Below the pieces are notes generated by a model. It did no database searches, was not told the origin of the DNA, and saw nothing but the letters and a program-made list of their open reading frames with translations. The position numbers and the translations under genes are program-made. Of a DNA stretch of 6,246 nucleotides, positions 2,421 through 5,859 are shown in pieces. Source of the stretch: Planctomycetaceae bacterium. Lineage in GTDB: Bacteria > Planctomycetota > MHYJ01 > SBBU01. Positions within the stretch are counted from its first letter, which is position 1. The number at the start of each line of letters is the position of its first letter. The stretch lies in NCBI GenBank assembly GCA_005239585.1, contig SBBU01000113.1:1-6246 (forward strand), read 5' to 3'.

Positions 2421-3683
2421 ATGAAACTGGCGGGCAGGATTTTTATAGGTCTACTGATCGGTGTAATCGCCGGAATAATCTGCAATCAATATAAAGAGAC
2501 ACAGCAAGTTCAGTGGACAGTCAGTAATATAGCACCACTAGGTAACATCTTCCTGAATCTTATCTTCATGATTGTAATTCCCCTCATCTTCTCCGCCATA
2601 GTCCTTTCAGTCTCTGAGTTTAGAGATATGGCCGTACTGGGACGAATCGGTCTAAAAACCCTGTTTGTAACCGTAATCCTTGCCTCGATTTCTGTTGCCA
2701 TCGGTCTGGCGCTGACGAATTTTCTAAGACCGGGAGAAGCATTTGATGTCAAAGAGAGAGAAAATCTTATTCAAAAGATGCAAAAAACAACTGAGGAAAA
2801 GATGGCTCAGGCAAAAAAGGCAAAGCCATTCATCGATGTCATAATTGATATAATCCCAAAAAATCCCATCAAAGCCCTCGCAGAAGGAGATTACCTTGCT
2901 TTGATGTTTTTCTCGCTCTTATTCGGCATCGCTGTCGCACTATGCAGTCCTGACAGGACTCAAAACCTTATAGGAGTCCTGCAGGCGGTGTTCGACGTTT
3001 GCTTAAAGATAATCACTTTTGCGATGGCTTTGGCACCGTTCGCAGTGGCATTGCTTGTCTTTCCTATAGCAGTAGAAATAGGTTTTAGAGTCATAGAAAC
3101 TCTTGGTAAATTCATGCTCGTCGTCATTCTTGGGCTCGCAATCCATATGTTTATTGTTTATTCCATCGTTCTCAGGTATTTTGCAAGAGTAAATCCATTC
3201 TTGTTCTTTAAAAAGATAAGAGAGGTAATGGTCACCGCCTTTTCCACAAGTTCAAGCAATGCTACACTTCCTGTTTCATTAAAAGTTGGAGAAGAAGAGC
3301 TCAAAATTCCAAGAGAGATAAACAGATTCGTCCTCACAGTAGGCGCTACTGCAAATCAAAATGGAACTGCCCTTTACGAAGGTGTTACAATCCTCTTCAT
3401 CGCCCAGGTATTTGGGGTAAGTCTATCACTGGAAAATCAGCTAATGGTAGTTCTGATGACAATTCTTGCGGGCATCGGGACTGCCGGAGTGCCCGGTGGA
3501 TCTTTGCCATATATTGCCATGATACTAACGATGGTAGGAATACCGGCAGACAGAATAGCTCTTATCTTGGGGGTTGACCGCATACTAGATATGTGCAGGA
3601 CAGTTCTAAATGTGACTGGCGATCTGGTTGTTGCCACATACATTGCATCCTCTGAAGGAAAGCTGGTACTCAAAGAGACATGA
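2421..3683 (+). CDS. DAACS/SLC1-family dicarboxylate/amino acid:cation symporter
   Basis: This 420-aa inner-membrane protein has the length and hydrophobic profile of GltP/DctA/GltPh-type symporters, which import acidic amino acids or C4-dicarboxylates with Na+ or H+. Visible family marks are an HP1 serine-rich loop (FSTSSSNATLP, 274-284), the TM7 motif region (GATANQNGTALYE, 308-320), HP2 (AGVPGGSLP, 355-363), and TM8 (DRILDMCRTVLNVTGD, 386-401). D390 and R393 match the GltPh residues that bind the substrate amino group and side-chain carboxylate (D394, R397), which favours an acidic amino acid; N397 and D401 match cation-site residues. A charged loop (about 104-135) between TM3 and TM4 is normal for the family. 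The TM7 motif reads NQNGT rather than the usual NMDGT. The gene looks complete and begins with a typical family N-terminus at ATG 2421. Its TGA stop abuts the first small repeat. Confidence 0.93.
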   Translation: MKLAGRIFIGLLIGVIAGIICNQYKETQQVQWTVSNIAPLGNIFLNLIFMIVIPLIFSAIVLSVSEFRDMAVLGRIGLKTLFVTVILASISVAIGLALTNFLRPGEAFDVKERENLIQKMQKTTEEKMAQAKKAKPFIDVIIDIIPKNPIKALAEGDYLALMFFSLLFGIAVALCSPDRTQNLIGVLQAVFDVCLKIITFAMALAPFAVALLVFPIAVEIGFRVIETLGKFMLVVILGLAIHMFIVYSIVLRYFARVNPFLFFKKIREVMVTAFSTSSSNATLPVSLKVGEEELKIPREINRFVLTVGATANQNGTALYEGVTILFIAQVFGVSLSLENQLMVVLMTILAGIGTAGVPGGSLPYIAMILTMVGIPADRIALILGVDRILDMCRTVLNVTGDLVVATYIASSEGKLVLKET

Positions 3684-3684
3684 C

Positions 3685-3783
3685 CTCCACACTTTGGCCT
3701 TATGAAAACAGTAAGAGTAGTTATACTATTGGAAAACTGGTTTTGACATGAGTTACTAGTTTTAACTAATCCAAAGTGCGGGG
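3685..3783 (+). mobile_element. MITE-like small inverted-repeat element, copy 1 (99 bp)
   Basis: The ends CTCCACACTTTGG (3685-3697) and CCAAAGTGCGGGG (3771-3783) are inverted repeats: 12 of 13 positions pair counting one G-T. The element is flanked by TGAC (3681-3684, including the symporter stop) and TGAA (3784-3787). It carries no coding capacity. An internal AGTTA (3751-3755) and TAACT (3763-3767) form a 5-bp stem. It is in the same orientation as copy 2 and roughly four-fifths identical to it. Small size, inverted ends and short flanking repeats suggest a non-autonomous transposable element; a repeated structured RNA is the alternative. Confidence 0.6.
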
Positions 3784-3798
3784 TGAACTCCGCACTTT
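3773..3798. terminator. Strong hairpin at the junction of the two repeats, possible terminator
   Basis: AAAGTGCGGGG (3773-3783) pairs with CTCCGCACTTT (3788-3798) as an 11-bp stem, including one G-U, closed by a TGAA tetraloop. It arises from the head-to-tail meeting of two inverted-repeat ends. It lies about 90 nt after the symporter stop and has only three U residues after the stem, so termination would be partial. It is nearly symmetrical and would also form on the other strand. Confidence 0.4.
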
Positions 3799-3887
3799 AG
3801 CCTTGTGAAAACAGTAGGAGTGGATGTATAATTGGAAAACGTGTTTCAAAAGGAGTGGCTAGTGCCAAACTAGACCAAAGTGCGGGG
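3788..3887 (+). mobile_element. MITE-like small inverted-repeat element, copy 2 (100 bp)
   Basis: The ends CTCCGCACTTTAG (3788-3800) and CCAAAGTGCGGGG (3875-3887) are inverted repeats, and the copy is flanked on both sides by a perfect 4-bp direct repeat TGAA (3784-3787 and 3888-3891), as expected of a target-site duplication. The internal stem of copy 1 is kept with changed bases: AGTGG (3854-3858) pairs with CC (3865-3866) and ACT (3869-3871) around an AA bulge. Its last G forms the first base of the GTG start codon of the next gene. Confidence 0.65.
3803..3832 (+). promoter_or_regulatory. Predicted promoter inside repeat copy 2
   Basis: TTGTGA (3803-3808), an 18-bp spacer and a perfect TATAAT (3827-3832) would start transcription near 3839, some 48 nt before the GTG of the PPC gene. 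Copy 1 has only TACTAT at the aligned position. The element may therefore drive the two downstream regulatory genes independently of the symporter. Confidence 0.45.
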
Positions 3888-4312
3888 TGAAATCAATCTC
3901 GATCGGAAAAGCTGATCAACACATATTACGACTCGATGTTGGTGACGAAGTTGTTGCTTCAGTAAGCGAGTTCGTCAAACAAAAGAATATCTTGTCTGGC
4001 TCGATCATGGGACTGGGTGCGGTAAAGGATAGTGTGTTGGGCTGGTTTGATCCCAATACAAAGGAATATTCAAGGAAGACGATGCCGGAGGCGCTTGAGC
4101 TTGTTGGCCTTACTGGGACAATTGCGTGGTTCAATGACAATCCTGCAGTTCATATGCATGTGGTTGTAGGTGACGAATTTGGAAGGACATATGCAGGGCA
4201 CCTGTTTTCTGCAGTCGTCGCGGTACTGTGTGAAATTGTGATACAAAGCGGCAATGTCAAGGTAACAAGGCAGAAAGATCAACAGTTTGGTCTGAATTTT
4301 CTCGATATCTAA
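3887..4312 (+). CDS. PPC-domain (DUF296) protein
   Basis: The 141-aa product is a complete single PPC (plants and prokaryotes conserved, DUF296) domain. Known members are small, commonly trimeric proteins; some bind DNA or metal, and the bacterial role is mostly undefined. Landmarks are GSIMGLGAV (38-46), the LGWFDPNTKEY strand-turn (51-61), the histidine set AVHMHVVVGD (87-96; H89, H91) and H105 in YAGHLF, which together can form the family metal site, and CEIVIQ (115-120). The only start open to this frame is GTG 3887, because a TAG lies at 3860. That GTG is made of the last base of the repeat and TG of its flank, and no Shine-Dalgarno sequence precedes it. Excising the repeats would give ATG in the ATGA overlap with the symporter. 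It ends 4 nt before the REC-PilZ gene, so the two are probably one operon. Confidence 0.88.
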   Translation: MKSISIGKADQHILRLDVGDEVVASVSEFVKQKNILSGSIMGLGAVKDSVLGWFDPNTKEYSRKTMPEALELVGLTGTIAWFNDNPAVHMHVVVGDEFGRTYAGHLFSAVVAVLCEIVIQSGNVKVTRQKDQQFGLNFLDI

Positions 4313-4316
4313 TCAT

Positions 4317-5585
4317 ATGATGCAAGATTTCACAGCGCAAAAAGTAGTGAATCTGCCATTTGATATTCCCCTACTATACTCTGTTTACCATGAAAACGGT
4401 GAGATTCTATTCCACAAAGGGGCGCAACTTAATCCCAACCACTTCAAGTACCTCAAGGCCGCAGACATTACAACCGTATTTCTGTCAGATAACGATGAAG
4501 AAGAAGCCATACAAAAATTTCGGTTTGAAAGGACTACACTACCGATCAAGGAAGAACTTATACAAGAGGGAGCTGTCTTTGATAGAGACATCATAAACAA
4601 TTTTGGTTCGGTTGTTGTGCCAACAGGAACACCGGTTAGCCGGTTCCTTTATCAAAAGCTCATCGACACGGGGACTGAAGATCTTCGATTTAAGAAAAAT
4701 CAGTCTGATCTAAAATTTGATCAATTAATAATTTACAAAGAACTTTTAGAAGGAACTAGAACCTTCGCTAGAACTGCTGCTATACCAACCCCTTCAGCCT
4801 CAAAGACTGCTCTTATTGCGGAAGATGATGGTCCGATAAGACGCATATTGGTGCATATACTTCAAGACGCTAATTTCAAAACGTTTGAGGCAGGTGACGG
4901 ACAGATCGCACTCGATACACTTCGTGAGAATGACAAAGTGGACCTAGTAGTTACTGACGTTAATATGCCAAAGATGGATGGTTTTGAATTGTGTCGTCAG
5001 ATAAAAAAATGGCCTGAGCGAATGCACATTCCAGTCATCATTTGTACTTGTCGAAACACCAGAGATGATATTCTTACAGCTCTGAAGGCCGGGGCAACCG
5101 ACTATATTCTGAAACCATTTTCAAAGGAGATCGTTCTAAACAAGGTATTAGAAACTGTCAAGACTACTGTTCCTTTTACACAGGAACGACGCAAACACCC
5201 CAGAAACCAGGTCGGTATTGCAATAACATGGAGTCCGCTTGACAAGGAGGTAGCTGGTGTTATTTACAATGCAAAGGTAATTAATCTATCTCCATCAGGA
5301 ATTTGTTTTGAGTACCACCCTGATCGATTTCAAGTAGATTATCCAAGGGGAGAGATTCCCTCCACACATCCGTTTTTTAAATACTCCAGATTTAATCCAC
5401 AATGCAATCCTATTAAACTCTTCATTGGCCAGCCTCCGACAGTCATTGATATATCCGGCAAAGTAATACATATTCAACTAGACCGAGCGCGGCAGTGTGA
5501 GATAGTCGGTATACAATTCGAGCCGCTTGAACCGGAACAAGAACTGATGCTAATAAAACTAGCACAAGCAGTAATAACGACTTGA
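4317..5585 (+). CDS. REC-PilZ response regulator with duplicated N-terminal module
   Basis: This 422-aa cytoplasmic signalling protein has three parts. Residues about 10-140 hold two similar modules (NGEILFHKGAQLNPNHFKYL at 27-46; VVVPTGTPVSRFLYQKL at 99-115), of the kind often found at the N-terminus of HD-GYP proteins. Residues 164-282 are a receiver domain with the acidic cluster E169/D170/D171, phospho-acceptor D214 (TDVNMPKMDG), T244 and K266 (LKPF), all canonical. Residues 290-420 are a PilZ domain with R292-x3-R296 and N323-x-S-x2-G328, the c-di-GMP binding motifs. It should combine phosphorylation by an unknown histidine kinase with c-di-GMP sensing. There is no DNA-binding or enzymatic output domain, so action is probably by protein contact. 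ATG occurs at 4317 and 4320, neither with a Shine-Dalgarno sequence; the 4-nt gap after the PPC gene suggests translational coupling. Confidence 0.9.
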   Translation: MMQDFTAQKVVNLPFDIPLLYSVYHENGEILFHKGAQLNPNHFKYLKAADITTVFLSDNDEEEAIQKFRFERTTLPIKEELIQEGAVFDRDIINNFGSVVVPTGTPVSRFLYQKLIDTGTEDLRFKKNQSDLKFDQLIIYKELLEGTRTFARTAAIPTPSASKTALIAEDDGPIRRILVHILQDANFKTFEAGDGQIALDTLRENDKVDLVVTDVNMPKMDGFELCRQIKKWPERMHIPVIICTCRNTRDDILTALKAGATDYILKPFSKEIVLNKVLETVKTTVPFTQERRKHPRNQVGIAITWSPLDKEVAGVIYNAKVINLSPSGICFEYHPDRFQVDYPRGEIPSTHPFFKYSRFNPQCNPIKLFIGQPPTVIDISGKVIHIQLDRARQCEIVGIQFEPLEPEQELMLIKLAQAVITT

Positions 5586-5619: not shown

Positions 5620-5859
5620 ATGGCAAAAGTAATCGTTTATACATCGCCGGCCTGAGGGGCTTGCAAGAGTGCTAAGGAGTTCCTTACGCGGAATAACGTG
5701 CCATTTGAAACGAAGGACATTTCTGAAGATGAAAATGCAATGAATGATCTGGTAAAACTCGGCTCGACTTCAGTTCCTACAATTCTAGTAGATGAAAAGG
5801 TCTTTATCGGGTTTAATGCCAATCAACTCGCCAAGGCACTCTCTATCCAGCCAAAGTAG
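5620..5859 (+). CDS. Selenocysteine-containing glutaredoxin-like protein (in-frame TGA)
   Basis: Read through the TGA at 5653-5655, this is an 80-codon gene giving a 79-aa glutaredoxin/NrdH-type thioredoxin-fold protein. It opens with MAKVIVYTSPA, then U12-G13-A14-C15 in place of the family CxxC, then KSAKEFLTRNNVPFE. It continues with the SVPT cis-proline loop (V52-P53) and VFIGF (61-65), and ends at TAG. The length is typical for the family. The Sec replaces the nucleophilic N-terminal Cys, which in known selenoenzymes raises thiol-disulfide exchange reactivity. TGA is a stop in two neighbouring genes, so it is not a reassigned codon, and frame and homology continue unbroken on both sides. 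A SECIS-like hairpin follows. The start is ATG 5620. The alternative is a pseudogene with a nonsense mutation of the Cys codon (TGC or TGT to TGA); the hairpin and otherwise intact frame argue against it. Decoding needs SelA/SelB/SelC elsewhere in the genome. Confidence 0.82.
5669..5689 (+). promoter_or_regulatory. Putative bacterial SECIS element
   Basis: Just downstream of the UGA, TAAGG (5673-5677) pairs with CCTTA (5682-5686) around a 4-nt loop AGTT. A lower stem of GTG (5669-5671) with CGC (5687-5689) is offset by a bulged C5672 and includes one wobble pair. The loop begins 22 nt after the UGA and has G at its second position, both within the known bacterial SECIS pattern (loop about 16-37 nt from UGA, G in the first two loop bases). 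SelB would bind here. Confidence 0.6.

Follow-up and report, generated by a model that had tools for sequence, protein, structure and literature searches.

MITE-like repeat units between a symporter gene and a PPC-domain gene, and a putative insertion into an ancestral ATGA junction

Gene order and the repeat units

The window, by which we mean the whole 6,246-bp stretch of DNA that was analysed, contains genes for a DAACS-type symporter, a PPC/DUF296 protein, and a response regulator-PilZ protein, all of which run in one common direction (Table 1). The PPC stop and the response regulator-PilZ start are only 4 nt apart, forming a compact junction, and the symporter-to-PPC gap now measures 203 nt. 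An in-frame TAG at 3860-3862 lies 27 nt upstream of the GTG at which the PPC gene begins, and this GTG is the first in-frame start after the TAG. Since no start codon occurs between the two, an earlier PPC start is ruled out.

Other features of the window concern the surrounding genes. The N-terminal ≈160 residues of the response regulator-PilZ protein (+ strand) have no domain assignment, and among the best 120 of its 723 scored relatives, only P0125 (42% identity, 96% query coverage) is full-length at >40% identity. Downstream, a glutaredoxin-like frame (5620-5859, + strand) reads TSPA-TGA-GACKS, with one in-frame TGA (5653-5655) at the redox position. With this TGA read as selenocysteine, the frame matches PF00462 above the cut-off, whereas its matches to TIGR02196 and to NF041212, the Uxx-star selenoprotein family, stay below theirs; the frame probably encodes a selenoprotein. 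On the - strand, a 512-aa open frame (853-2391) points away from the symporter gene and has no Pfam or NCBIfam match at E 0.001.

Table 1. Features of the symporter-PPC region, in positions of the window
Feature	Position	Strand	Remarks
DAACS (SDF) dicarboxylate/amino acid:cation symporter gene	2421..3683	+	420 aa; PF00375, E 5.7e-119
Symporter stop TGA	3681-3683	+	sequence
Left flank TGAC, putative target-site duplication	3681..3684		holds the symporter stop; 1 mismatch to TGAA
MITE-like unit, copy 1	3685..3783		99 nt; direct repeat plus inverted ends
Copy 1 left inverted end	3685..3697		11/13 match to right end
Copy 1 right inverted end	3771..3783		sequence
TGAA between copies, putative shared target-site duplication	3784..3787		sequence
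MITE-like unit, copy 2	3788..3887		100 nt; its final G also opens the PPC start codon
Copy 2 left inverted end	3788..3800		11/13 match to right end
Promoter-like site in copy 2 (TTGTGA-18-TATAAT)	3803..3832	+	no excess of sites over shuffles
Copy 2 right inverted end	3875..3887		predicted RNA fold: pairs with left arm just before PPC start
PPC/DUF296 (PCC domain) protein gene	3887..4312	+	141 aa; PF03479, E 1e-30
GTG start of PPC gene	3887..3889	+	last base of copy 2 plus TG of flank
Right flank TGAA, putative target-site duplication	3888..3891		sequence
Response regulator-PilZ gene	4317..5585	+	PF00072, PF07238

The symporter-to-PPC gap is occupied by two units arranged head to tail, which are identical in 77 of 100 alignment columns and differ in 23 (one of them a gap). 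The initial annotation had described two ≈100-bp units with 13-bp inverted ends, separated and flanked by TGAC, TGAA, and TGAA. The units and flanks are as it described them; the lengths are corrected to 99 and 100 nt, and the inverted ends, which read C[T/C]CCGCACTTT[A/G]G, are imperfect, with 11 of 13 positions matching in each copy. A match of this quality was reached by 3 (copy 1) and 4 (copy 2) of 200,000 base shuffles, and the repeat and its inverted ends are far beyond chance. With the TGAA included, the repeat period is 103 and 104 nt. Among the three flanks, the left TGAC is off by one base and the middle and right TGAA are identical, which fits a duplication of either 3 bp (TGA) or 4 bp.

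The differences between the copies are clustered in the middle of the units (12 of 27 columns there compared to 11 of 73 columns toward the ends; Fisher p 0.003, with the segment chosen post hoc). The longest stop-free stretch in the whole array, over all six frames, is 38 codons; a resemblance of a minus-strand peptide of the unit to a phage gene was dropped, given stops in all six frames of the array. Like MITEs, the units are small and non-coding and carry no transposase, and terminal inverted repeats lie at both ends of each copy. As judged from these sequence features, the double unit appears MITE-like, of an unclassified family, and its membership of the MITEs is putative.

Gene ends at the joined junction and in relatives

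Joining position 3680 to position 3888 in silico gives ...ACATGAAATC..., in which the symporter ends in ...LKET and its TGA overlaps an ATG as ATGA. The PPC protein of the joined sequence reads MKSISIGKADQH through to its normal end, and its N-terminus (MKSISIG...) is that of the present PPC protein, with the M supplied by ATG instead of GTG. The sequence thus bears out two earlier claims, namely that joining the outer flanks restores both gene ends, with the symporter stop lying over an ATG that reads MKSIS, and that the present GTG consists of the last base (G) of copy 2 plus the TG of the flank.

A further argument was that chance hardly accounts for this reconstruction; as regards the four bases by themselves, it was overstated. 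TG is common to every NTG start and every TGA stop, and 6.5% of random stop/start pairs (drawn from 2,163 ORF ends in loci L001-L080) mimic an A plus a flank matching at 3 of 4 positions, if the array is assumed to be flush with both codons. In the window, a single base separates the symporter stop from the array, whose last base is also the first base of the PPC start codon. Support for insertion at the junction comes from both array ends being flush with codons, rather than from the ATGA bases alone. By a crude count built on longest-ORF calls, 39 of the 700 same-strand ORF pairs in L001-L080 have an in-frame ATGA overlap and, equally crudely, so do 3 of 125 pairs in the 14 loci with Planctomycetota-type titles. 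NTGA is described as by far the commonest gene-junction spacing motif in prokaryotes (PMC12548453), and the reconstructed ATGA ancestor is thus of an expected kind.

The closest symporter relative, P0005, is 71% identical and two residues longer at its C-terminus, and the closest PPC relative, P0002 (63%), starts with M-K at the same column as the window PPC start. The other PPC relative, P0003 (56%), has a start three residues farther upstream, with I in the column of the window's M. Given the M-K start shared with P0002 and a symporter that lacks only two residues of P0005, the array sits between complete genes. Both genes have intact ends in protein alignments with their closest relatives (P0005 and P0002). 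P0005 and P0002, which are known here as proteins, are each listed with a 17,913-bp contig, and their genes are most likely on the same contig. The last residue of P0005 is I, which permits, without proving, an end of the form ATA-TGA, that is, an ATGA junction.

Relatives of both proteins were sparse. Besides the query, only one symporter exceeded 55% identity among the best 120 of 7,999 scored, and the PPC protein search, with 21 candidates, yielded just P0002 and P0003 in addition to the query. The best named hits, P0006 (55%) together with P0129 and P0132, tentatively suggest Planctomycetota as the phylum. A symporter alignment search of genome_contigs gave 196 relatives, the best 80 of which were kept. 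With the PPC alignment, matches came from 2 of 10 selected genomes and from 20 of the 397 genomes of a single class, in a search that was aimed at Brocadiia and that probably covered another class; viral contigs gave none. With the single PPC protein as query, 83 of 392 genomes matched, at a best identity of 40%. These 392 genomes represent the phylum of a MAG titled Planctomycetota, and largely the same draw served in the PPC, inverted-end, and BLAST searches. No locus with both the symporter and the PPC protein (E 1e-5) was found among 122 loci, some of which extend ≤1.5 kb to either side of the match.

Searches for further copies of the unit

No further copy of the unit occurs outside the array in the window or in 102 fetched loci. 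A pattern of 23 specified bases had no match in genome_contigs (one genome per species, 84,980 species) or in viral contigs (IMG/VR). Likewise, no match was obtained with a right-end pattern in the IMG/VR viral contigs, with a gapped inverted-end pattern in the 392 genomes, or by BLAST of the array against plasmids. Across the GTDB-wide, viral, plasmid, phage, and 392-genome searches, there was no convincing third copy, which fits a lineage with few sequenced relatives.

Several short matches were considered and set aside. In 33 phage records, BLAST of the array found matches of 26 nt at E 0.8, which look like chance. A shorter left-end pattern picked out two mutually alike IMG/VR contigs (L123 and L124), also judged to be chance, where the match lies inside a phage gene that has an HNH-like look on reading of its sequence, and ends after ≈27 bases. 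Short BLAST matches in 19 of the 392 genomes look like chance as well. Eight of these were fetched (L125-L132); surroundings were viewed for seven and ORFs listed for two, and L132 was compared by BLAST and profile alone. With 22.2 bits and E 2.4e-6 against these eight preselected loci, L126 is the best profile match, and it falls within a 396-aa open frame. L125 and L129 have ≈25 bases in common with the middle of copy 2, at a best single-genome E of 1.1e-4, or ≈0.04 over 392 genomes, and their surroundings are without unit-like inverted ends, apart from one unrelated palindrome in L129. This match, near 1501-1527 of both loci, covers 24-28 bases, includes a 1-nt gap, and is probably chance with respect to the query; the stretch itself is alike between those two genomes.

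Origin of the array and predicted effects on expression

With moderate confidence, we interpret 3681-3891 as the product of one or two insertions of a MITE-like, non-autonomous, IS-derived element into an ancestral ATGA junction. In the ancestral state, the symporter TGA would have overlapped the PPC ATG as ATGA. A transposase acting in trans would have cut inside A^TGAA, with a duplication of TGAA (or TGA) on repair. The TGA at the beginning of the duplicated target would have preserved the symporter stop, and the terminal G of the element would have left the PPC gene a usable NTG start, GTG in place of ATG, with an unchanged N-terminus. A second insertion or a tandem duplication would then have produced the two copies. 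In favor of insertion, the unit ends carry inverted repeats and abut TGA[A/C] exactly at all three borders, the join restores both genes in an ATGA overlap, and the next junction is compact too. Against it count the lack of a convincing third copy in the searches above, the mismatched base of the left flank, the 6.5% of random pairs that mimic the join, the upstream start of P0003, and the two copies in one place, which are also expected from local tandem duplication.

Duplication may itself form part of the insertion model, as a sub-case in which one insertion was followed by tandem duplication of the element plus its flank and by drift to 77% identity. We regard this order of events as possible, if on the unlikely side. 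A duplicated module that includes TGAA explains the middle TGAA without a second insertion, but middle-clustered differences and conserved ends are unlike the neutral decay of a local duplicate, and this clustering, seen in a post hoc test, leans to two diverged family members. A different origin, to which we give a low probability, is a tandem cis-regulatory RNA, in which two riboswitch-like structured leader domains lie upstream of the PPC gene and govern its translation, and the terminal stems are their closing helices. Consistent with such an RNA, the + strand folds beat dinucleotide shuffles (z -3.3 and -2.6 for copies 1 and 2), the closing stem adjoins the start codon, all four varying pairs of the consensus fold still pair, via one-sided changes, and only a minority of column shuffles have a consensus energy as low (26 of 500 for the whole unit and 82 of 500 for the inner part). 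By contrast, the z values of the - strand (-3.2 and -4.3) are similar or better, and the units fold better than shuffles on both strands because inverted ends demand folding. Moreover, the structure conservation index of 0.45 does not surpass the column-shuffle mean of 0.46 (236 of 500 shuffles score the same or higher; 166 of 500 for the inner part), no pair has changed on both sides, and at each of columns 5 and 12 the difference costs one copy a stem pair. Rfam gave no family at the gathering score, and its single match at a loose threshold (E 3.2) is regarded as chance. The TGA[A/C] at all three borders is also left unexplained by a structured RNA, the case for which appears weakened, although a comparison of two sequences is a weak test.

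If the units are insertions, the ancestral junction could still have been something other than ATGA, with a spacer since lost or with stop and start contexts that agree by chance. The frequency of mimicry among random stop/start pairs given flush borders, the small share of same-strand pairs with an ATGA overlap in the crude counts, including the Planctomycetota-type loci, and the TG in every NTG start and TGA stop all favor this alternative. However, it asks for both array ends to be flush with codons, which is itself unlikely, and no residue is missing from the PPC start compared to P0002; we consider it improbable. An assembly artefact, from the merging of two alleles or a wrongly resolved repeat in the metagenome assembly, seems to us extremely unlikely. 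In its favor, the window proteins are listed from one 6,246-bp contig, but both genes are intact, and 23 differing columns in 100 would be a lot for strain variants of one repeat.

The insertion model that we favor has precedents in part. Small mobile DNA that separates neighboring genes is a known kind of event, and the array is probably an ordinary case of it. Prokaryotic MITEs as described in PMC10969869 resemble the units in length (≈100 bp), inverted ends, short flanking direct repeats, lack of coding capacity, and intergenic location; unlike the units, which are known from one locus, they have family-wide copies and a partner IS. Chunjie of Geobacter uraniireducens (via PMC10969869) is likewise a MITE inside an operon, but at 178-235 bp and with 37 further intergenic copies it differs from the 99/100-nt units, and the parts of PMC10969869 that deal with it mention no start-codon swap. 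MITEAba12 of Acinetobacter (111-114 bp; PMC6382973) has inverted ends like those of the units and can be likened to them in its outward-facing promoters and its potential for fusion with neighboring coding sequences. It is unlike them in its 9-bp target duplications and its known partner, ISAba12, and the IS ends of its group (GGCTTTGTTGC...) differ from the unit ends (PMC6382973). Pneumococcal BOX elements are also repeats inside operons that supply gene ends; what they contribute, as far as the relevant part of PMC3049150 describes it, is stop codons or their own short ORFs rather than a fresh start codon where a stop and a start once overlapped. Among the titles and abstract openings listed by literature searches, none describes a MITE that rebuilds a start codon at an ATGA overlap, which does not establish absence from print.

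Should the insertion model be correct, the locus would be a readable case of a small mobile element that opened an overlapping gene pair and left both proteins unharmed. Operon inference relies on gene order and overlaps, and such insertions would be one route from a compact junction to a long spacer. A further idea, which we think has little chance of being right, is that the element family is tuned to stop-start overlaps and targets the TGA(A) of ATGA junctions. Such a family would enter operons with both proteins spared, the upstream stop restored by the duplicated target and a downstream NTG start rebuilt by the terminal G, translation uncoupled, and a hairpin placed over the second start, and two separate insertions at one junction would be a trace of the preference. 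The wider value of the locus hinges on a family preference for ATGA junctions, and one locus is insufficient to tell.

For expression, insertion would have turned ATG into GTG and coupled into uncoupled translation. Coupling is reported to be most efficient at spacings of -4 to +3 nt and to drop by 3- to 10-fold by about +40 (PMC12548453), and one study cited in that paper saw no effect up to +25; the 203-nt gap would end stop-start coupling. In read-through mRNA, the hairpin of copy 2 would occlude the PPC start, the predicted opening cost of which is 11.9 kcal/mol in read-through RNA compared to 3.9 kcal/mol in the empty-site join and 7.3 kcal/mol in a transcript starting in copy 2; these energies are for single sequences without a shuffled control, and we judge them to be weak evidence. 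The PPC gene would then depend on initiation at the GTG, possibly from a promoter inside copy 2. Two promoter-like sites were counted in 3500-4100, compared to a mean of 1.2 (sd 1.2) in shuffles, and the promoter in copy 2 is a weak candidate.
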